A stretch of DNA of 64,000 nucleotides from Cyanobium sp. PCC 7001 (lineage in GTDB: Bacteria; Cyanobacteriota; Cyanobacteriia; PCC-6307; Cyanobiaceae). The notes beneath the pieces were generated by a model, which made no database searches, was not told the DNA's origin, and saw only the letters and a program-made list of their open reading frames with translations. The stretch spans positions 734,416-798,415 of the forward strand of contig NZ_DS990556.1 in the NCBI RefSeq assembly GCF_000155635.1, in the 5' to 3' direction. Every line of letters begins with the position of its first letter. Position 1 is the stretch's first letter. Below are positions 1-49,569 of the stretch, one piece after another. A program made the translations under genes and the position numbers.

Positions 1-165
1 CTGGCCGGAGCGGCCTGGCCCCAGGTGGCGGTGAATCCCGGGAACGGGGAGCTGCCCCCGGGCCCGGTCACCGCAGGGCACCGGATCATCACCGTGTGGA
101 TGTCCACCGCCTCGGCCCAACTGCACCTCGAACCCTTCCCCTGGGTGGAAGCTGGGGCAAACTGA
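1..165 (+). CDS. C-terminal end of a CocE/NonD-type hydrolase (partial)
   Basis: The window opens inside a reading frame that runs without a stop to TGA at 163-165, giving 54 residues. The segment beginning AGAAWPQVAVNPGNGE followed by a GHRIIT strand resembles the last part of the C-terminal beta-sandwich of X-Pro dipeptidyl-peptidase/CocE-type serine hydrolases. The catalytic domain lies outside the window. The next gene starts 23 bases downstream on the same strand. The family call is from recognition of a short segment only, so it is tentative; that the frame is coding is more secure. Confidence 0.5.
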   Translation: MAGAAWPQVAVNPGNGELPPGPVTAGHRIITVWMSTASAQLHLEPFPWVEAGAN

Positions 166-188
166 GCCCACCGATCCCCCTGCAGCTG

Positions 189-1097
189 ATGCGGTCCTCC
201 CTGCGGCCAGGCCAACCGGGCTGGCTCTCCATCTGCCGCGCCGCCATTCACCGCACCGCCGTCCACCGCACCGCCATTCGTCGCACCGCCATTCGCCGCA
301 CCGGCAGCCAGGTGCTGGCCCTGGCCCTGGTGCTGGGCGCCCCGGCCGGTGGGCTGATCGGCAGGGCCGTGCAGGCCGCACCGGCCACCGCCAGCCCCGG
401 TGTTACGGGCACGTCGGCGCTGAAGCCTGCAGCGGCCGCGGCCGGTCCCCTCAGCGTGGACGAGGCCCGGGCGGCGGCCGAGCGCATCCTCAAGGCCGTG
501 CAGACCAAGGATCCCAACCTGCGCTTCGCCCAGTTCTCCCCGGAACTGCAGGCCATCAGCAGCCCGGCGATGGTGGCCGACACCATGCGCACCCAGCCGG
601 ACCTGCTCGGCTGGACGTTGCTCAGCGTGCGGGGCGGTCTGTCCTCCACCACGGTGGAAGCGAGCCTGAGAACCAGCGACGGCGTGCGGGACCTGTTCAT
701 GGTGCTGGATCCCCAGGGCCGCCTCACCGGTTACCACTTCGATCTCACCGACGCCCAGTCGAGCCGCGTGGCGGCGGATTTCGTGCGCGAGCTGAGCCGG
801 GGCCACTTCATCAGCGCCCGCAGCTATCTGGCCCTGCCCCTGCAGGAGGAACTCACGCCGGCCACACTCCAGGCCAAGTGGCAGCAGCTGCAGCGGAGCA
901 CCGGCAATTTCGTGAAGGTGGTGCGGGTGATCGAGGCCAGCCGCAGCGAGGACAGCCAGCTGGTGCTCGTGAACACCGAGTTCAACCGGGTGACCGACAA
1001 CCTGTTCGTGATCCTGAACACCAACAACGAGATCACCGGGGTCGATTTTCCCAAGGACCCCAATCCCCCCCAGCCGGCCTCTGCACCGGCCCGCTGA
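189..1097 (+). CDS. Secreted DUF3887-like protein
   Basis: A 302-residue protein with an N-terminal hydrophobic segment (VLALALVLGAPAGG) and an AQA-like cleavage region, so probably exported or lipid-free periplasmic. Two similar halves follow (about residues 95-185 and 195-290), each with an alpha-beta pattern and a motif such as TGYHFD or TGVDFP; this duplicated layout fits the DUF3887 family. I chose ATG 189 because an earlier ATG at 96 would overlap the preceding gene. The N-terminus before the hydrophobic stretch is unusually long and basic because of a 15-nt tandem repeat. It lies 69 bases upstream of glgB. Function unknown. Confidence 0.6.
   Translation: MRSSLRPGQPGWLSICRAAIHRTAVHRTAIRRTAIRRTGSQVLALALVLGAPAGGLIGRAVQAAPATASPGVTGTSALKPAAAAAGPLSVDEARAAAERILKAVQTKDPNLRFAQFSPELQAISSPAMVADTMRTQPDLLGWTLLSVRGGLSSTTVEASLRTSDGVRDLFMVLDPQGRLTGYHFDLTDAQSSRVAADFVRELSRGHFISARSYLALPLQEELTPATLQAKWQQLQRSTGNFVKVVRVIEASRSEDSQLVLVNTEFNRVTDNLFVILNTNNEITGVDFPKDPNPPQPASAPAR
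246..305 (+). repeat. Four tandem 15-nt units in the signal-peptide n-region
   Basis: Four adjacent 15-nt units (246-260, 261-275, 276-290, 291-305) of the form attcaccgcaccgcc, differing at a few positions. In frame they encode a repeated (I/V)(H/R)RT(A/G) pentapeptide, which lengthens the positively charged region before the hydrophobic core of the export signal. Being a multiple of three, the copy number could vary between strains without breaking the frame. Confidence 0.85.
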
Positions 1098-15487: not shown

Positions 15488-15946
15488 TCAACCGTCAGCT
15501 TCACCGATCAGATGCAGGCTCAGACGGCGCCGCTGCCCGGCCTGGCGGTGCTCCCAGAGATAGATGGCCTGCCACGTGCCCAGCACCAGCCGGCCGCTCT
15601 GGAAGGACAGCGTGAGGCTGGTGCTGGTCAGGGCGGTACGGATGTGGGAGGGCATGTCGTCGGGGCCCTCGTCGTTGTGGCGGTAGGGGTGCCAGCTGCC
15701 CTCACCCCCCAGGGGGCTCACGCCGTGCTGGGGCACGAGCGCCCGCATGAAGGTGGTGAGGTCCTGCAGCACCCGCGGATCGGCGTTCTCGTTCACGGTG
15801 AGCGAGCAGCTGGTGTGTTTCACACACAACAGGCAGATCCCAGTGTCCAAGCCGCTTTCGGTGACCAGCTCCTGAATGGCGGCGGTGATGTTGGTGAAGC
15901 CCTCGCCGGGGGTGTCGAGTGCAAGTTCACAGATCGTCTGACGCAT
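15488..15946 (-). CDS. YjbQ family protein (secondary thiamine-phosphate synthase type)
   Basis: A 152-residue protein of the UPF0047/YjbQ family, usual length about 140. The hallmark segment CLLCVKHTSCSLTVNENADP and the later SHIRTALTSTSL (here DDMPSHIR) are present. Family members can supply weak thiamine-phosphate synthase activity, but the natural role is unclear. The gene marks the last ordinary gene before the disrupted island; only 10 bases separate its start from the divergent recombinase remnant, so part of its own promoter region may have been replaced. Confidence 0.92.
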   Translation of the reverse strand: MRQTICELALDTPGEGFTNITAAIQELVTESGLDTGICLLCVKHTSCSLTVNENADPRVLQDLTTFMRALVPQHGVSPLGGEGSWHPYRHNDEGPDDMPSHIRTALTSTSLTLSFQSGRLVLGTWQAIYLWEHRQAGQRRRLSLHLIGEADG

Positions 15947-15956
15947 CGTCGGCCAG

Positions 15957-16278
15957 GTGGCGTTCAGCTACCTCCGAGTCTCGACCCTCCAGCAGGCCGG
16001 CAATGGCCGCTCTGGGCTCGACCGCCAAGGCGATGCCTGCCTGGGGTTCTGCGAACGTCACGACCTGACGCCGAAGCGAGACCCGCTGGTCCAGCGCGGC
16101 CTGTCGGCGTTTACGGCGGCCACCGCAAGCAGGGCCCCTTGGCAGCGTTCTCGTCGTGAAGGACCTGGAGCGCTTCAGCCAAGAGACCCCCAGCCTGGCA
16201 GAGCAGCTCGTGCAGCGGTTGTGGGACCACGACCAGGATGCATGTCTCACCAGGTTGTTCAGTCGAGCAGCTCTCTGA
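15957..16278 (+). pseudogene. Serine recombinase (resolvase-type) N-terminal domain, frameshifted
   Basis: The frame from GTG 15957 reads AFSYLRVSTLQQAGNG and GLDRQGDACLGFCERH, the start of a serine recombinase catalytic domain with the nucleophile Ser in YLRVST. Around 16100-16137 the homology moves to another frame, which continues LGSVLVVKDLERFSQETPSLAEQL to a TGA at 16276-16278; this matches the next part of the same domain (LVVxxLDRFSR). The DNA-binding C-terminus is missing. A frameshifted, truncated relic of a mobile element is the simplest reading. Confidence 0.75.
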
Positions 16279-16441
16279 GCCGCTGCAGTTGTCGATACGA
16301 AGCGGAGTCGACCGGAGATTGTTGTGAGCGGCAGCCGAGGACCAAGTGCGTCCTGTGTCGGTGATCGAGCTGACGTGACACCAACAACCGCTCCAGCGAT
16401 CGCTTTCGCCCCGGGAGGGCCGGATCAGCGACGGCCTGAGG

Positions 16442-16705
16442 GTGCTCCACTTCAAGCCGCTCCGCTACGACCGCTGGAGCCAGTCGCTGGAGGTGACGCT
16501 GGGGGAGTTGATGCCTGCCGGAGAGCCGCCGCTGCTCAAGCGCCGCAAGGAGCTCACCCGCGAGGAAGCGATCAAGCTCTGGACCCAAAAGCTGCAGGCC
16601 GGCTGGAAGGTTTTCCGCCGCAGTGGCAGCCAGCAAGGAACTGAGCTCCGACGGGCAGAAGCGTACCGGGAGTTTGACTCGCACTCAGCAGCGAGCCCTG
16701 GCTGA
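16442..16705 (+). pseudogene. DUF1651-like gene remnant
   Basis: The frame reads VLHFKPLRYDRWSQS, then LKRRKELTREEAIKLW and QKLQAGWKV, the pattern of DUF1651, a family found in many copies in picocyanobacteria and often near mobile regions. The usual N-terminus (a GWL-type opening) is not preceded by an ATG, and the C-terminus runs on about 35 residues past the normal end, so this copy is probably broken at both sides. It could still be made from GTG 16442. Function of the family is unknown. Confidence 0.5.
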
Positions 16706-16891
16706 GGAGCTGCTGCAAGAAGCACAGCCCTGCCTCGATACCCGCCCGAAGCAAGCGACCACCAACACCAGCCGAAGCAGCCATGCCAGCCGGCGTGTCG
16801 AAAGCGAGCCATACTGCGACGACGAATACGGTACAGTACTGTTTGGCCTGGTTGATGCCGGACCCAAGTCGTCCTTCGGTTGCTTTGTTCG
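16706..16891 (+). promoter_or_regulatory. Upstream region of the TetR/RdhA-like cassette
   Basis: This 186-base non-coding stretch separates the DUF1651 remnant from the TetR gene. It falls from high GC to a more balanced composition, marking the left edge of the foreign-looking block. It contains the palindrome at 16828-16842. No clear -10/-35 pair can be fixed by eye. Confidence 0.5.
16828..16842. promoter_or_regulatory. Candidate TetR operator palindrome
   Basis: ACGGTAC-A-GTACTGT is a 15-base inverted repeat (7+1+7) with one mismatch, and includes the perfect 10-base palindrome ACAGTACTGT. It lies 50 bases before the ATG of the TetR-family gene. Size, symmetry and position fit an autoregulatory operator. 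Binding is inferred, not shown. Confidence 0.55.
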
Positions 16892-17539
16892 ATGGTCCGC
16901 GCCGCAACCCCTCCCCGTTCTCGAATCCTCCTGGCGGCCAAAGAGCTCTTTTTCAGTCAGGGTTTCGCCAGGGTCTCGACTGATGACCTTGCCCAGGCTG
17001 CCTCGGTTTCCAAGGCGACGCTGTACCGGCACTTCGAGGGGCTCAATGGGGTTCTTCGAGCAGTCGTGGAAGCTGAGGTTGAATGCTTTGAGCAGGGTGT
17101 TCCAACTGATGTTGAGACAGAGGAAGAATTCGTTGAAGTCCTGATCAGTTTTGGTTCGAAGCTTCTGAGATTTCTCAATCAGCCTGAGATCATCAGATTC
17201 TCACAGTTGATGTTTGAAGAGGCGCGTTCACACCACGATCTCGCCAGAGATTTTTACTCCTGTGCCTATGGCCGAACACAAGATGATCTATCACGCCTGA
17301 TCCAGAAAGGCGTTGATCTTGGCTATCTGAAGTCAGAGCACAGTGCCAGTGATCTTGCTGAACAGCTTCTCGGGCTTTTGGAGGGTTTTGGATTCGTGCG
17401 CGCACTTCTTGGCTTGACCAGCCAACCATTTGAAAATCCCGAAGAAAAAAGCCGATCCTGTGTGCGCATCTTGTTGCACGGGCATGCAGGAAGCCCGAAC
17501 CTTCTCGATCGCACTTTTATTCCTGCACGAAAGCCATGA
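16892..17539 (+). CDS. TetR/AcrR family transcriptional regulator
   Basis: A 215-residue dimeric repressor type. The N-terminal helix-turn-helix is clear: RILLAAKELFFSQGFARVST, then DDLAQAASVSKATLYRHFEGL. The ligand domain (about residues 65-200) is helical and not assignable to a ligand. ATG 16892 is preferred to TTG 16880. Its stop overlaps the ATG of the next gene (ATGA), so regulator and Fe-S protein are translationally coupled. GC content is visibly lower than in the flanking chromosome, in line with acquisition as a cassette. Confidence 0.92.
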   Translation: MVRAATPPRSRILLAAKELFFSQGFARVSTDDLAQAASVSKATLYRHFEGLNGVLRAVVEAEVECFEQGVPTDVETEEEFVEVLISFGSKLLRFLNQPEIIRFSQLMFEEARSHHDLARDFYSCAYGRTQDDLSRLIQKGVDLGYLKSEHSASDLAEQLLGLLEGFGFVRALLGLTSQPFENPEEKSRSCVRILLHGHAGSPNLLDRTFIPARKP

Positions 17540-18894
17540 GCATTCACAAATTCGCGTCTCCAGCGTCGCTTGGCGATCGGTTGAACGACTACAGCAAGCT
17601 TCTGATGGTTCATATCAAGAGCAAGTCTTTCACCATTGCTGTCGCGATCGCCACCCACTCAGTATTCCCGCTCCTTCGCTTGCTGCAGCAGCGGAAGATC
17701 GACAAAGGCGAGACAATCTGGCTGGAAGACATGCCCGGTCCACCACAAAGTCAGGTTTTCCCTCACCTGTCATTTCAACCGGCTGATCTGACTCCAAATG
17801 CCGGGCTACTTCGAAGACGTGCTCGCCACATGAAAGTCGATTACCCAGCAGCGGATTATCCATTTGCATACCGGAAGACGCCACTTTCAGGCAATGTGAT
17901 CAATGGCTTGGGCGAGGAGGCTGCCCGCCAGCCTGACCATGTATTTTTCGGTGACTCCTACAAACGCGCCTGGGGAAAGCTGGACTGGTATTTCCAGGTT
18001 ATGGAGCCCACCTCAATTCACCAACAGATTGCACAAATCTTTTGGCAGGACGGAGGTCGCGTTGGAATTGTGGCGCGCAGAAACACCGCCCCTCCAGAGC
18101 CGTCAGATGCCGCCCTCCTTGTCAAAGAGGCGGCGAGGCGCTTCGGCGCGAGCCTGGTGGGCATCACCAAGATGGATGCAAGTTTTTGCTACCGGGACTC
18201 ATCGCCCGATTTCCAGTATGCGATCTCAGTGGCATGGCCTATGAATCGAGAAGAGATGCTGCACACACCGAGCCAGCGCTCCAATCGGGAGATCATGGAT
18301 GCCTACAGGCAGGTCAATCGAGTCGCGATCAAGCTTGCGAACTTCATTCGATCCCTGGGCCACCCAGCTCAGGCGTCGACCAATCTAGCCCCAGGCTCCA
18401 GCACTGAAGTGCTTCATGTTCCCATTGCCATTGACGCTGGTCTTGGCCAGCTCGGCAAGCATGGATCCTTGATCACTGCTGAATTCGGCTCCAATGTGCG
18501 CTTAGCCACGGTGCTGACCGATTTGCCCCTTGCGATCGATCAGCCGCGCGACCTGGGTGTTGACGACCTTTGCCGTAATTGCCGGATCTGCGAAACCAAT
18601 TGCCCGCCTCACGCTATTTTCTCTGAAAAGCAGACTGTGAGAGGCCAGAAGAAGTGGTATGTCAACTTTGACAAGTGCGCACCCTATTTTGCCGAAACAC
18701 GTGGCTGCGGAATCTGTATTGAGGTGTGCCCCTGGAGTGAGCCCGGAAAAGGTCTGGAGCTCACAAAGACCCTGCTTGCTCGCCGCCATGCTGTTACGGG
18801 CAGCGAGTCGGCAGCTCTGTCGGAATGGGGCCCCACCTGGGTGCAGAGAACAACAAAGCCCGGGTCGAGGCCCCCAGCTCCAGGGCTGCCGTGA
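17536..18894 (+). CDS. Reductive-dehalogenase-like corrinoid/4Fe-4S protein
   Basis: A 452-residue protein. The C-terminal half carries CxxCxxCxxxCP (Cys346, 349, 352, 356) and Cx9CxxCxxxCP (Cys381, 391, 394, 398), the two 4Fe-4S sites of RdhA and QueG. The preceding segment (PIAIDAGLGQLGKHGSLIT, FGSNVRLATVLTDLPL) and the middle NVAIKLANFIRSLGHPA-like helix match the reductive dehalogenase domain, in which cobalamin removes halogen from organohalides. No Tat signal or anchor gene is present, so it would be cytoplasmic, unlike respiratory RdhA. The last 25-30 residues look like read-through into flanking DNA. Substrate unknown. Confidence 0.78.
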   Translation: MSIHKFASPASLGDRLNDYSKLLMVHIKSKSFTIAVAIATHSVFPLLRLLQQRKIDKGETIWLEDMPGPPQSQVFPHLSFQPADLTPNAGLLRRRARHMKVDYPAADYPFAYRKTPLSGNVINGLGEEAARQPDHVFFGDSYKRAWGKLDWYFQVMEPTSIHQQIAQIFWQDGGRVGIVARRNTAPPEPSDAALLVKEAARRFGASLVGITKMDASFCYRDSSPDFQYAISVAWPMNREEMLHTPSQRSNREIMDAYRQVNRVAIKLANFIRSLGHPAQASTNLAPGSSTEVLHVPIAIDAGLGQLGKHGSLITAEFGSNVRLATVLTDLPLAIDQPRDLGVDDLCRNCRICETNCPPHAIFSEKQTVRGQKKWYVNFDKCAPYFAETRGCGICIEVCPWSEPGKGLELTKTLLARRHAVTGSESAALSEWGPTWVQRTTKPGSRPPAPGLP

Positions 18895-19078
18895 TCCAGC
18901 CACTCAGCACGGCGACAGCGCCTGTGCCATCGGCCTGGCGTTGCAGGCACAGCGCAAGCCGGCCCGGCTGCCTCGGTTGGGGTTCCACCTCGAGCACAGC
19001 GCCGTAGAAGCGGGGCAGATCGGCGGGCTGGTCGGCCGCCAGCGCGATCGAGCCCTTCACGTTCCTCACAGACAGCAT
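18794..19078 (-). pseudogene. VOC/glyoxalase-family remnant
   Basis: From ATG 19078 the minus strand reads GSIALAADQPADLPRFYGAVLEVEPQ, the start of a vicinal-oxygen-chelate domain (FYxxLLxVEP), then RQPGRLALCLQRQADG and a GWITAALELGA helix. A normal domain has about 120 residues; here the stretch between the first strand and QPRQPGRLAL seems deleted, and the C-terminal part is replaced by sequence antisense to the end of the RdhA-like gene. This looks like a resident gene cut by arrival of the cassette. Confidence 0.5.
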
Positions 19079-19643
19079 CCCAACAGATTGCAGACAGACT
19101 GCAGGGCCGTGCGTCCAACGGGCCTCAGGCCAGCCACCCACCCAACGAGATTGAGCTCAGGCCGCTCTTGGCGAAGTTGAAACGCAGCGGGCCCAGGTGG
19201 GGGGCACCTGAGCGCTGGGGTGCGCGCGACAAGCCCGGAGCGCATCGCAGCCGGGCCTGCTTCCAGCACCCGGGCCTGCTTCCAGCACATCGTGAAGAGC
19301 GGGGATGGTGGCCGGCAGCTCTCGAGGGAGCCATGCATGGCACGGGCAGCCACCTCCAGCGCAACGGCAGCTTCCCATCAGAGGTGGCCCGCGTCACCGC
19401 TCCAAGCTGGGCCGCCGCCGAGGGCATCGGGTCAGCCGGATCGGCGGGAGCGACCTCCCCGCGGGCGACTGGGTAGAGGTGCTGCTTGATCAGACCTCCT
19501 TCGGGAAGCGCTGAACCCGCGGGGCAGGGGCGGAGAACCGTCGCGTGATCCATCGCGGTGATCACTTGGTGAGAAGCAATCCGAAACAACAACCCGGCGC
19601 CACAGAAGGGATCACTGCCGGGCCGATAGCCTGTCAGGGCTGC
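19079..19643. other. Degenerate non-coding stretch
   Basis: No intact gene is supported here. A 19-base perfect tandem duplication (19251-19288) shifts the frame. On the plus strand one frame ends with LPAGDWVEVLLDQTSFGKR at a TGA near 19514, which resembles the C-terminus of a MoeA-like molybdopterin protein, and another frame nearby reads VTAPSWAAAEGIG; together these suggest the decayed 3' end of a gene, at low confidence. Confidence 0.4.
19251..19288 (+). repeat. 19-bp perfect tandem duplication
   Basis: The unit ccgggcctgcttccagcac is present twice with no spacer (19251-19269, 19270-19288). As 19 is not a multiple of three, the duplication would frameshift any gene across it, in keeping with a decaying region. 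Confidence 0.92.
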
Positions 19644-19838
19644 ATGGAGGCCTCTCTCTTGAACAAACTTGCAGGACCGTTGCGCAGAGCCTTGATCTAT
19701 GGAGTGATCAGCTATTCCGGGCTGGTTCTGATCAACAATGCAGAGCTGAACTTACCCAACATGTGGATCGCCTACCTGCCGATGTTCATCGGCGTGTATG
19801 TGCTCACGCTCTGGCTGGACAGGAAAGTGGGAAGCTGA
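19644..19838 (+). CDS. Small membrane protein, 64 residues
   Basis: From ATG 19644 the protein has two likely membrane segments: LIYGVISYSGLVLI and MWIAYLPMFIGVYVLTLWL, with a polar NNAELNLPN loop and a short basic tail DRKVGS. No family recognised. It is the first apparently intact gene after the disrupted island. Longer upstream starts exist but would add sequence with no coding character. Confidence 0.6.
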   Translation: MEASLLNKLAGPLRRALIYGVISYSGLVLINNAELNLPNMWIAYLPMFIGVYVLTLWLDRKVGS

Positions 19839-20188: not shown

Positions 20189-20677
20189 ATGACCAGCCCC
20201 GCCCCTGCCCTGGAGATCCTCTACGACGGAGCCTGTCCGCTCTGCCTGCGGGAAGTGGACGTTCTGCGCCGTCGCGACCAACGGCGCCATGGAGACAGCC
20301 CACGTCTCGCCTTCGTGGACATCGACGCTCCCGGCTACGACCCCGCGGCCCATGCCGGCGTGACCTACCGCGAGGCGATGGGCAGGATCCACGCGATCAC
20401 GGCCGATGGCACGGTGCTCCGCGATGTGGAGGTGTTCCGCCGCGCCTATGGGCTGATCGGGCTGGGCTGGCTGTATGCCCCAAGCCGCTGGCCCCTGCTG
20501 AGACCCCTGGCGGATCTGGCCTACCGCGTCTGGGCGGGCTGGCGGCTGCGCCTCACGGGCAGGCCGGATCTCGACAGCCTCTGCCAGGAGCGCTGCGGTC
20601 TAGACCGGCCGTCAGCGGTTGGGGCCGGCGCGACAAGCGAGTCCGCCCCAAGCGAGCCTGCTCCGTCGTCGCCGTGA
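20189..20677 (+). CDS. DCC family thiol-disulfide oxidoreductase (DUF393)
   Basis: A 162-residue protein of the DUF393 family, named for its DxxCxxC signature: here YDGACPLC near residue 12, followed by the typical FVDIDAPGYDP and REAMGRIHAI segments. The redox-active CxxC suggests a role in thiol-disulfide exchange, but targets are unknown. ATG 20189 follows a gaggagcagcag purine-rich ribosome site. The last 20 residues are Ala/Ser/Pro-rich. A flavin oxidoreductase gene follows after 37 bases. Confidence 0.88.
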   Translation: MTSPAPALEILYDGACPLCLREVDVLRRRDQRRHGDSPRLAFVDIDAPGYDPAAHAGVTYREAMGRIHAITADGTVLRDVEVFRRAYGLIGLGWLYAPSRWPLLRPLADLAYRVWAGWRLRLTGRPDLDSLCQERCGLDRPSAVGAGATSESAPSEPAPSSP

Positions 20678-41166: not shown

Positions 41167-42033
41167 ATGCAAGGGGGTAACCAGCACCAGTTCGTGCTCC
41201 CCGGGCCGCCCGCCCTTGGCCAGGGCCAGAGGCTGTGGCTGTTCGCGGGAACGGGGGAGGGGCCTGGGCTGGCGCAGCAGCTGCTGGCCCAGGGCTGGCG
41301 CCTGCGGATCAGCGTGGTGGACCCTGTGGCCGCGAAGCCCTACGGGCCACTCAGGCCCGTCGAGATCTGCGCAGGGCCGCTGGCAGGGCCGGCAGCCCTC
41401 AAGGACGCCCTGGCGGAGGCGGCCACCGGGGACGATCCCTTCGCCGCAGTGATTGACGCCACCCACCCCTTCGCCGAGCGGATCCACGCCACCCTCGCCC
41501 AGGGATGCGCCGCAAGCCGCCTGCCGCTGCTGCGGCTCCGCAGGCCGTCCTGCCGGATGGAGGAGGCCTCCACCACCCTGCTGCCCCACCTGGAAGCCCT
41601 GGCCGGCCTGGACCTGCGGGACAGCCGCCTGCTGCTGGCGATCGGAGCGCGCCAGCTCGGCGTGGCCGTGGCACGCACGCCCGGAGCCCTGCACCACGCA
41701 CGGCTGTTGCCCACCGCCTTCAGCCTGCAGCAGGCCATGGCGGCGGGGTTGCCGCCCCAGCGGGTGGCCTGCCTGAGACCCACTGGCACAGGGGCGATCG
41801 AGGCGGCGCTGGTGAGGCGCTGGGGGATCGATCGGATCCTGGCGCGTCAGTCCGGCGGCGAGCCGGAGCGCCGCTGGCACCGGATCGCCGCCCGCCAGGG
41901 GTGCCGCCTGCTGCTGCTGCAACGCCCCGAACCCCGCGTCGACGTGCCCCAGCTGAGCAGCTCCGAGCTGGTGCGGCATCTGGCCCGCTGGGCGCCCGAT
42001 GGCGGCTCCGGGAGCAGCATGGGCGGCATCTGA
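41167..42033 (+). CDS. cobK: Precorrin-6A reductase
   Basis: A 288-residue enzyme of corrin-ring synthesis. The N-terminal nucleotide motif LWLFAGTGEGPGLAQQL and DATHPFAERIHA are the family hallmarks of CobK/CbiJ; the C-terminal RDSRLLLAIGARQL and ILARQSGGEPE segments also fit. It supports a functional (pseudo)cobalamin pathway together with cobO at the right edge. cutA follows after 13 bases. Confidence 0.9.
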   Translation: MQGGNQHQFVLPGPPALGQGQRLWLFAGTGEGPGLAQQLLAQGWRLRISVVDPVAAKPYGPLRPVEICAGPLAGPAALKDALAEAATGDDPFAAVIDATHPFAERIHATLAQGCAASRLPLLRLRRPSCRMEEASTTLLPHLEALAGLDLRDSRLLLAIGARQLGVAVARTPGALHHARLLPTAFSLQQAMAAGLPPQRVACLRPTGTGAIEAALVRRWGIDRILARQSGGEPERRWHRIAARQGCRLLLLQRPEPRVDVPQLSSSELVRHLARWAPDGGSGSSMGGI

Positions 42034-48447: not shown

Positions 48448-48910
48448 CAAGTACGAATACAACGCCACTGCCGGCGTGATGGCCCTCGATCGGGTGCTGC
48501 ACTCCTCCGTGCGCTACCCCTTCGACTACGGATTCGTACCCAACACCCTGGCCGATGACGGCGCTCCCCTGGATGCCATGGTGATCATGGAGGAGCCCAC
48601 CTTCGCCGGCTGTCTGATCCGCGCCAGGCCGATCGGCATCCTGGACATGGTGGATTCCGGTGCCCACGACGGCAAGTTGCTCTGCGTGCCGGAGGCGGGA
48701 TTCCGCCACCAGCAGATCCGCTCGATCCGCCAGATCGCCCCGAACACCCTCGAGGAAGTGGCGGAGTTCTTCCGCACCTACAAGAACATGGAGGGGCGGG
48801 TGACCCAGATCCAGGGCTGGCTCGACCACGATGCCGTGCCTGCCCTGCTGGAGCACTGCATCGACGCGGCGGAGGGCGGCGGGCATGCCCCGGCGGACCC
48901 TGAGCCCTAG
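48368..48910 (+). CDS. ppa: Family I inorganic pyrophosphatase, canonical cyanobacterial copy, D67A-type
   Basis: A 180-residue protein clearly of the cyanobacterial Ppa type: [36 protein letters not shown] and RTYKNM. The core motif usually written DGDPLD reads DGAPLD: the residue equivalent to the catalytic Asp67 of E. coli is Ala66 (codon gct at 48563-48565). All other ligand positions (Asp63-64, Asp69, Asp in MVDS, HDGK) are present. Its activity may therefore be reduced. A second, intact-looking pyrophosphatase is at 28.2 kb. Confidence 0.93.
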
Positions 48911-49569
48911 GCGGCCCGCTGCAGCAGGAAACCCTCGTAGCCGAGAGCCTGGAACACCCTGGCGGGGTCGGTGAAGCCGGCGGCATTCACCAGGGCCGTG
49001 AGCCGCGCCATACCGATCGGATGCAGACCCTGGATGAGGGCCGAGAGCTCCTCATCCTCCGCCGGCAGGCCGCTGGCCTTCTGGAAGCCGAGCCAGGCCG
49101 CCTCCACCTGGGTCTGCAGGGGCGAGCGCTCCGGTGCCATCAGATCCACCAGCACCAGCTGCCCACCGGGTTCCAGGCTGCGGGCCAGGGCCGTGAGGAA
49201 GGCCAGCTTGGTGCCGTCATCCGGCAACGCCTGCAGCACCAGCACCGAGAGGGCACCGGCGAAGCAGGCATCGGCCTGCAGATCCTCCACCCGGGCCTGA
49301 CGCCAGACGATGCCGGCCTCCCCCAGCCGCTGCTGCGCCTCGGCCAGCATGTCGGCGGAGGGATCGATGGCGGTGATCCGCCAGTCCGGACGCTGGGCCC
49401 TGGCCTCCACGAGCTCGGCTCCGGTGCCGCAGCCGGCCACCAGCACCTGGGCTCCATCGCGGCCGGCGCGGGGCGAGGCGGCCAGGAGGGCCACAGCCAG
49501 CCGGGCGAGACTGGCGTAGCCCGGGATCAACTGCTGCACAACAAGGTCGTATTCCTGCGGAACAGCCAA
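48907..49569 (-). CDS. Class I SAM-dependent methyltransferase
   Basis: A 220-residue methyltransferase. The SAM-binding motif [12 protein letters not shown], the acidic loop AIDPSADML and the [13 protein letters not shown] strand are typical of small-molecule methyltransferases. Substrate unknown. The start is TTG 49569, the earliest start before the conserved strand. Convergent overlap of 4 bases with ppa. Confidence 0.85.

Follow-up and report, generated by a model that had tools for sequence, protein, structure and literature searches.

A TetR-linked cassette most probably encoding a reductive dehalogenase-like protein in Cyanobium sp. PCC 7001 and a few other cyanobacteria

A 64,000-nucleotide stretch of Cyanobium sp. 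PCC 7001 DNA (the window) carries a gene for a TetR-family regulator, tetR, joined to an open reading frame (ORF), here called rdh, whose product resembles the reductive dehalogenase (RDase; RDH as a family name) RdhA. Judged from sequence, the cassette represents a real, conserved and acquired RdhA-like family that is linked to TetR, occurs in a few cyanobacteria and most probably works like an RDase. We consider the case strong that the protein is a reductase with a cobamide and two [4Fe-4S] clusters, nearer to RdhA than to the tRNA epoxyqueuosine reductase QueG. To the whole statement, namely an acquired, self-repressing operon for a compact class III cobamide enzyme that is induced through TetR, fed by ferredoxin, supplied with pseudo-B12 and dehalogenating, we assign a probability of roughly 0.48. 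Neither estimate is higher because one active-site Asn column is not universal among RDHs, structural Z-scores are mostly tied with those of QueG, and the QueG-model score of the protein lies above those of known RDHs. The footing of both is homology, motifs, a Tyr-Asn-Arg set, a predicted fold, the TetR linkage, a repeat, acquisition and selection; the remaining steps are put forward as a proposal. The two genes are as follows; codes beginning with G and L are the genome and locus labels used in the analysis.

16892..17539, plus strand: TetR-family regulator with an AefR-like C-terminal domain (TetR_C_7), from Pfam; 94% identical to the G035 copy and 60% to the L003 copy.
17536..18894, plus strand: ORF of 452 codons for an RdhA-like cobamide/[4Fe-4S] oxidoreductase; homologous part 17536-18807 (424 aa), with 18808-18894 probable read-through.

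The initial annotation described a TetR gene and a second ORF, joined at ATGA and lower in guanine-plus-cytosine (GC) content than the surroundings, and the ORFs, Pfam matches and GC counts confirm this. The tetR stop overlaps the start of the RDH-type ORF at ATGA in the window ORF list, and the GC content is 0.522 for tetR and 0.555 for rdh, with 0.690 for the whole window. The cassette had been said to start at 16706, where we found no feature beginning. The tetR ORF runs from a TTG at 16880 to a stop at 17539, and comparison with relatives makes the ATG at 16892 its likely start (215 aa). The claim of a 452-residue enzyme holds for the length of the ORF but probably not for that of the native protein. 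In the G035 relative, which is 96% identical over 424 residues, the codon that follows codon 424 is TGA, as against TCG in the window, and the full-length members L003, L004 and L086 terminate at residue 426. For these reasons residues 425-452, the last 28, are probably non-native read-through, and the window copy probably lost the stop of a 424-residue protein. A selenocysteine reading was rejected, as the two in-frame TGA codons of G035 lie beyond the conserved end.

Profile searches place the protein closer to RDHs than to QueG. Of the hidden Markov models proposed for this check in the initial annotation, the RDH domain PF13486 gave a match below its cut-off, but the NCBIfam models favour RDH (TIGR02486, 134.6 bits) over QueG (TIGR00276, 64.5 bits). 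The relatives L003 and L080 give 131.9 and 132.3 bits to the RDH model and 59.7 and 61.3 bits to the QueG model; as controls, three plasmid RDHs reached 318.7, 205.6 and 269.3 bits to TIGR02486, and a cyanobacterial QueG reached 296.7 bits to TIGR00276. Searches of the PDB with the single sequence returned PceA (9.8e-29), NpRdhA (1.4e-28) and QueG (3.9e-7), and a profile of six family rows returned NpRdhA as the best match (1.6e-39), followed by PceA (1.3e-33) and QueG (1e-7). Because the PF13486 match is below cut-off, the RDH call rests on TIGR02486, the PDB relatives and individual residues. The scores suggest a protein on the RDH side that lies outside the curated family and resembles QueG slightly more than known RDHs do.

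The residues on which this call depends are the following.

18571..18603, plus strand: first 4Fe-4S motif, C346-x2-C349-x2-C352-x3-C356, from sequence and alignment.
18676..18729, plus strand: second 4Fe-4S motif, C381-x9-C391-x2-C394-x3-C398, from sequence and alignment.
18304..18306, plus strand: Y257, equivalent of the proposed proton donor Tyr246 of PceA and Tyr426 of NpRdhA, from alignments (described in PMC7565698, PMC5500849).
18382..18384, plus strand: N283, equivalent of PceA Asn272 (Asp130 in QueG), from alignments (described in PMC4646009).
18499..18501, plus strand: R322, equivalent of PceA Arg305 and NpRdhA Lys488, with no QueG equivalent, from alignments (as described in PMC4646009).

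These positions were compared in a 27-row alignment of the family (6 rows), RDH (7), QueG (10) and SCP2-type proteins (4), in which 5 family rows cover the region of Y257 and of the QueG motif DYH; PceA and NpRdhA residue numbers were counted by hand on printed alignments. The two ferredoxin-type 4Fe-4S motifs noticed in the initial annotation are confirmed, and all eight cluster Cys positions are filled in 6/6 family rows. The decayed G372 copy, which lies outside the aligned rows, has Tyr in place of C381. Tyr occupies the Y257 column in all five family rows and all seven RDH rows. The R322 column holds Arg in 6/6 family rows and, in the seven RDH rows, Arg (three) or Lys (four); 10/10 QueG rows have Phe, Leu or Tyr there. 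Trp374 is likewise kept throughout the family (6/6) and RDH (7/7) rows and in 0/10 QueG rows. HMMER pairs N283 with an Asn of NpRdhA; the QueG Asp sits in a neighbouring column of the 27-row alignment, and the Asn/Asp pairing is visible in a separate alignment.

The same residues bear on the idea that rdh encodes a second tRNA epoxyqueuosine reductase, as a paralogue of QueG. According to PMC4646009, QueG is marked by the DYH motif, by Asp where RdhA has Asn272 and by the absence of an Arg305 equivalent, while its Tyr is shared with RdhA (Tyr101/Tyr246). DYH is present in 10/10 QueG rows and in none of the five family rows covering the site, which read AYR or TYL there. A common superfamily, 64.5 bits to the QueG model and a topology test in which family plus QueG retains p 0.129 would agree with a paralogue. 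However, the protein has no DYH, carries Asn for the QueG Asp, lacks the QueG-type C-terminal region and falls far under the cut-off of 200 bits for TIGR00276, and a QueG-type gene with DYH already exists elsewhere in the genome (C1:1996229). Residues, scores and that separate gene thus disfavour a paralogue, which we consider very improbable.

Predicted structure points the same way. A core model of residues 175-424 was built from nine alignment rows, three of them QueG, which may bias it toward the QueG fold. Foldseek matched this model in the PDB to PceA (6e-15), NpRdhA (2.3e-13) and QueG (3.0e-9), and then to B12 chaperones (2e-3), with template modelling (TM) scores, by query length, of 0.55-0.60 for RDHs and 0.41-0.45 for QueG. 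VIA-align gave its highest Z, 17.0, to one NpRdhA chain (6zy0, K488Q; 163 aligned, 2.5 Å) and about 9.8 to CblD. The corrinoid-binding fold anticipated in the initial annotation is therefore matched by the model, which resembles PceA, NpRdhA and QueG, with the fold being common to QueG too. One possibility is that the protein handles cobamides rather than using them in catalysis, as a chaperone or a decyanating or corrinoid-reducing protein like MMACHC/CblC but with clusters. B12 chaperones are the next fold neighbours of the model after RDH and QueG, but their matches are weaker (Z below 10 versus 13.5-17; E 2e-3 and above), and the protein retains the Tyr-Arg pair of RdhA along with both cluster motifs. 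We judge this explanation improbable.

In the 27-row tree the family forms a clade with support 100/99, QueG one with 99/99 and RDH one with 87/84, and family and RDH group together at 88/81. After removal of six long or odd rows, QueG stands apart at 100/100 and RDH at 81/66. The tree thus leans to RDH without proof. Taken together, NCBIfam scores, PDB matches, active-site residues and Foldseek bear out the view of the initial annotation that the protein is of the RdhA type rather than QueG.

The architecture of the protein departs from described RDases. These are grouped in PMC10463259 as respiratory, transmembrane and two catabolic types, of which the last two are recognised by a second, vestigial copy of the corrinoid domain. 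The window protein, with 424 residues, has one core, and the duplicate of NpRdhA aligns to the same residues 177-337; no vestigial duplicated core was found in it. It is thus not a standard catabolic RdhA by the description in PMC10463259. The C-terminal reductase domain of self-sufficient catabolic RdhA was not found either, as the native part stops 26 residues past the last cluster Cys, and compared with respiratory RdhA the C-terminus is about 40-48 residues short.

17629..17685, plus strand: residues 32-50, a conserved hydrophobic segment (possible membrane association); Kyte-Doolittle 1.69, family alignment.

The initial annotation called the enzyme cytoplasmic and non-respiratory, with neither a twin-arginine translocation (Tat) signal nor an RdhB anchor. 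Reading the N-terminus of the window protein by eye, with no predictor run, we also see no twin-arginine motif, and no anchor gene directly follows rdh (no RdhB model was searched); the next ORF by coding bias, 19545-19838, lies about 650 bp beyond, and in L003 a GNAT gene follows rdh. The location itself is less certain, as the hydrophobicity of residues 32-50 might allow contact with a membrane; the best hydrophobic windows of three relatives reach 1.73, 1.33 and 1.34 on the Kyte-Doolittle scale. L003 and L006 bear Arg-Arg pairs ahead of the hydrophobic segment, a possible remnant of an ancestral Tat signal. With the defining features of respiratory and catabolic forms looked for and not found, the protein appears to fit no known RdhA subclass.

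The linkage to TetR is borne out and now includes a candidate operator. The regulator matches TetR_N (4.8e-13; 49.1 bits against a gathering score of 24) and TetR_C_7 (2.3e-13) in Pfam, and tetR lies immediately upstream of rdh in L003, L005, L008 and L086 as well.

16828..16842, no strand: candidate TetR operator ACGGTAC-A-GTACTGT, a 7+1+7 imperfect inverted repeat upstream of tetR, present in 6/6 aligned loci.

The 15-bp repeat, of the form ACGGTAC-R-GTACYGT, precedes tetR in 6/6 aligned loci, against a background mean identity of 58%, although these loci amount in effect to two lineages whose TetR proteins are about 60% identical; in L003, L004, L005 and L086 the repeat is perfect. The expectation in the window at up to 2 mismatches is 0.10 matches, and 3/100 shuffles gave two or more. 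In the genome the repeat is unique at one mismatch or fewer, yet a reversed control pattern hits one place per strand; because of this control, conservation and not rarity is the evidence for an operator. The TetR gene of the Leptolyngbyaceae copy is a different, divergent one (TetR_C_30), and the repeat was not found within three substitutions at that copy or at the G372 stretch. A promoter scan of 16700-19000 found none.

Representatives of the family are rare. Genome searches covered the cyanobacterial phylum, and exact peptide patterns of the window protein served as queries in a contig scan. Among 12 congeners the best matches were all at the QueG level (0/12 carriers). Matches at E <= 1e-20 occur in 7/300 genomes of the family Cyanobiaceae, and at E <= 1e-12 in 4/386 of a phylum sample, the strain's own genome being included in both counts; one of the four (G153) is an SCP2-type protein. 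The RDH model exceeds 100 bits only in G000, G347 and G372 among the 386, with 69.5 as the next score and none passing the cut-off. The contig scan gave five loci. They belong to four genomes, namely those of Synechococcus sp. BO 8801 and Aphanothece cf. minutissima and the metagenome-assembled genomes (MAGs) of A. saxicola and a Leptolyngbyaceae member. Five of the eight known carriers have an intact copy (the window, G035, BO 8801, A. minutissima and G347). In the Leptolyngbyaceae MAG the gene is split over two contigs (L006 2995-3133, L007 1-142), with the break at about codon 259. Between the inner contig ends there is a 10-base inverted match of the kind expected from an insertion element, and this copy is probably interrupted by such an element.

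Several observations support the earlier view that the cassette was acquired, namely its low GC content, its position in an island absent from G002 and an identity to the G035 cassette far above that of the QueG genes.

15919..19606, no strand: segment absent from congener G002 (accessory island of about 3.7 kb), between a UPF0047 gene (15488-15946) and the backbone resuming at 19607.
16442..16702, plus strand: DUF1651 gene travelling with the cassette (PF07864 1.4e-11); DNA common to G035 from 16403.

In G002 only about 470 bp separate the matches that flank the island (to 15918 and from 19607), which marks it as an insertion. The left match stops at 15916 in G006 and at 15914 in G005, and the right match begins only at 20216 and 19993, respectively, with gaps of about 90 bp and about 166 bp counted in those genomes; the right edge given here is that of G002 alone. 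The island has a GC content of 0.601, versus 0.688 and 0.709 in the two flanks. Because window positions 16403-18863 are 94.35% identical to G035 while the QueG DNA of the same two genomes is 74% identical, the sequences suggest a recent transfer between genera. In L003 the cassette is probably older, because its GC content is host-like (0.70 and 0.68, with 0.67 for the locus).

Other sequences lie in or near the island. At its left edge, the start of an ORF at 15957-16361 (plus strand) resembles the N-terminus of a serine resolvase (PF00239 E 0.051, below cut-off) and is possibly a remnant of the recombinase that brought the island. DNA similar to that of the DUF1651 gene (16442-16702) is found at several sites in congeners. 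A weak glyoxalase-like fragment (PF18029 E 0.076, below cut-off) lies at 18794-19141 on the minus strand, antisense to the 3' end of the rdh ORF. The ORF at 19545-19838 (plus strand) encodes 97 residues with hydrophobic stretches, and its DNA from 19607 matches the rdh-less congener G002 and so belongs to the backbone. Two small ORFs that by eye resemble a PemK/MazF-type toxin and its partner follow the cassette in G035 (L008, about 140-680, minus strand).

Comparison of the copies indicates that rdh is under purifying selection. The ratio of nonsynonymous to synonymous substitution rates (dN/dS) for rdh is 0.13 between the window and G035, 0.12-0.13 between the window and L003, L004 and G347, and 0.11-0.22 across all ten pairs of the five intact copies; for tetR it is 0.21 between the window and G035. 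These values argue against the idea that rdh is a selfish or decaying passenger that now serves no function in the strain, as does the retention of catalytic and cluster residues in the window copy. A passenger would be in keeping with the patchy spread (7/300 family genomes, 0/12 congeners), with the damage to three copies (G372 and the MAGs of A. saxicola and the Leptolyngbyaceae member) and with the lost native stop of the window copy, and we rate it as unlikely. Cargo of phages or plasmids was rejected, as 50,697 phage and 72,556 plasmid records gave matches only below 60% identity, none covering 80% of the query. Scans of viral contigs, including scans with RDHs L071 and L075 and alignments A2 and A5 as queries, found no relative. 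An anti-phage role was also rejected, there being no PADLOC match at E <= 0.01.

If the protein is an inducible RDase, the cassette might operate as follows. TetR would bind the 15-bp inverted repeat and hold the operon low until a small hydrophobic compound, probably halogenated, released it. The enzyme would then load a base-off cobamide, the cell's own pseudo-B12, and two [4Fe-4S] clusters, and would draw low-potential electrons from ferredoxin reduced by photosystem I. The halogen would be reductively removed, with Y257 as proton donor set by N283 and R322.

The supply of the cofactor by the cell's own (pseudo)cobalamin, suggested in the initial annotation, is plausible in view of cobK, cobO and a BluB score below cut-off. 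Both cob genes had been placed in the window; cobK lies there (41167-42030), but only the 3' part of cobO is inside (from 63873, minus strand, at the right end). We expect the cell to make pseudo-B12 because no protein exceeds the BluB cut-off (23.5 bits against 150), as in most cyanobacteria, for which PMC5816740 describes pseudo-B12 as the usual cobamide. The cofactor of PceA is described as norpseudo-B12 (PMC7565698, PMC10463259). A methyltransferase gene at 48907-49569 (minus strand) gives a match below cut-off to the corrinoid-protein-associated CpaM model (66.6 bits against 180). PMC10463259 also describes NpRdhA as driven in vitro by spinach ferredoxin and a flavodoxin reductase, and catabolic RDases as tolerant of oxygen. 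Halogenated compounds are presumably not foreign to such cells, because marine Synechococcus are reported in PMC6299022 to release chloromethane and other organohalogens.

A number of results weigh against dehalogenation or against a firm RDH assignment. The match to TIGR02486 (134.6 bits, E 6.6e-39) misses the curated cut-off of 160.35, that to PF13486 (14.5 bits, E 0.02) misses the gathering score of 24.3, and the QueG-model scores of the three plasmid RDHs (40.6, 33.4 and 27.0 bits) are lower than the 64.5 of the window protein. A full-length model from a six-row alignment had a predicted local distance difference test score (pLDDT) of 41 and was set aside; the quality of the core model is moderate (pLDDT 65; predicted TM score, pTM, 0.63), overall root-mean-square deviations in Foldseek are about 9.5-12 Å, and in VIA-align the remaining NpRdhA chains (14.3-14.6) are level with PceA (at most 15.0) and QueG (at most 14.3). 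Approximately unbiased (AU) tests reject none of family plus QueG (p 0.129), family plus SCP2-type (p 0.192) and family plus respiratory RDH (p 0.173). The N283 column holds Asn in 6/6 family rows but in only 2/7 RDH rows, both from Sulfurospirillum; by this alignment the Asn is a PceA-type feature that is not universal among RDHs. PceA Tyr382 falls in a gap of the alignment, and F385 stands where respiratory rows carry Trp (3/3; PceA Trp376) and catabolic rows Arg (4/4; NpRdhA Arg552). This Phe would form a hydrophobic wall as in PceA, but without the substrate contact that Arg552 makes in NpRdhA. Only 26-28 residues follow the last Cys in five full-length family rows, versus 67-74 in three respiratory rows. 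No halogenase, ferredoxin or transporter was found among the six neighbouring ORFs scanned. Finally, three of the eight known carriers have a broken copy: the A. saxicola MAG (frame changes), the Leptolyngbyaceae MAG and G372 (a remnant). The outcomes named in the initial annotation as grounds for abandoning its reading, a best match to QueG or loss of the frame in relatives, did not occur, these three carriers aside.

Some of these results would also suit an RdhA-fold cobamide/[4Fe-4S] reductase, still inducible through TetR, that acts on something other than an organohalide, for example by opening an epoxide or expelling another leaving group of a toxic compound or secondary metabolite. QueG, as described in PMC4646009, shows that the fold and redox chain are capable of non-halogen chemistry; F385 and the short C-terminus make the pocket differ from those of both solved RDase types, the family sits on a long branch of its own, and no halogen-related gene was seen among the neighbours scanned. 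However, the three proton-transfer positions of PceA are kept (Y257, N283 and R322), including the counterpart of Arg305, for which PMC4646009 describes no QueG equivalent. We regard a non-organohalide substrate as a serious possibility, though one that we doubt.

RDases have mostly been studied in anaerobic respirers and a few aerobic heterotrophs. Judged by title and start of abstract, none of the papers listed in our literature searches, which did not take in supplementary files, describes an RDase in a cyanobacterium, and no passage cited here deals with this protein; the analysis also drew on PMC13101508 and PMC2667541. In an oxygenic phototroph, an RdhA-type enzyme would meet abundant oxygen, a low-potential ferredoxin already at hand and pseudo-B12 made by the cell itself. 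The fusion of photosystem I with a reductive dehalogenase is drawn as a hypothetical in a 2024 review on unsolved questions of photosynthesis (PMC11449116), and in the cassette nature may already have linked the two. An active enzyme would offer itself for light-driven dehalogenation and would bring a phototroph into the organohalide cycle; activity on another kind of substrate would extend the range of reactions known for the class III cobamide fold. It is tempting, if still speculative, to see here a natural, inducible and light-powered RDase subfamily of oxygenic picocyanobacteria, with a single core, no Tat signal, a short C-terminus and a TetR operon, which uses photosystem-I ferredoxin and pseudo-B12 under oxygen and has spread between genera as a small cassette.

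Among known systems, respiratory RdhA including PceA (TIGR02486; 4uqu, 8q4h) shares with the window protein the corrinoid core, two 4Fe-4S motifs, the Tyr246/Asn272/Arg305 set and a single core domain. In contrast, the window protein has neither a twin-arginine motif nor a linked gene for an RdhB-type anchor, carries F for Trp376 and has a model score below cut-off; Sulfurospirillum RdhA genes occur with a two-component system, and the cassette has a TetR gene instead. Catabolic RdhA (NpRdhA 4ras, BhbA, JtRdhA) also lacks a Tat signal, gives the best profile match (1.6e-39) and makes electrons from ferredoxin plausible. Unlike these enzymes, the window protein has no duplicated core or reductase domain, and it carries Arg for Lys488 and F for Arg552. 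T7RdhA and A6RdhA of Acidimicrobiaceae, which PMC10008544 describes as PceA-like with a corrinoid and two clusters, are likened to it by description only. QueG (TIGR00276; 5d6s, 5d08) shares the superfamily, the redox chain and the active-site Tyr, but the window protein lacks DYH and the QueG-type C-terminal region, has Asn for Asp, possesses Arg322 and differs at the N-terminus. The SCP2-tailed RDH/QueG-like proteins of other cyanobacteria and Priestia, named from the annotation of Priestia and Nostoc records and from their clade, belong to the same superfamily, and in Priestia a TetR gene is also upstream. However, L009, L010, L040 and L078 have lost the Arg column in 4/4 cases and the Tyr in 3/4, replace one cluster Cys with Ala in 4/4 and have a long C-terminus. 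These proteins thus appear to form a branch separate from the RdhA-like family of the Cyanobium cassette.

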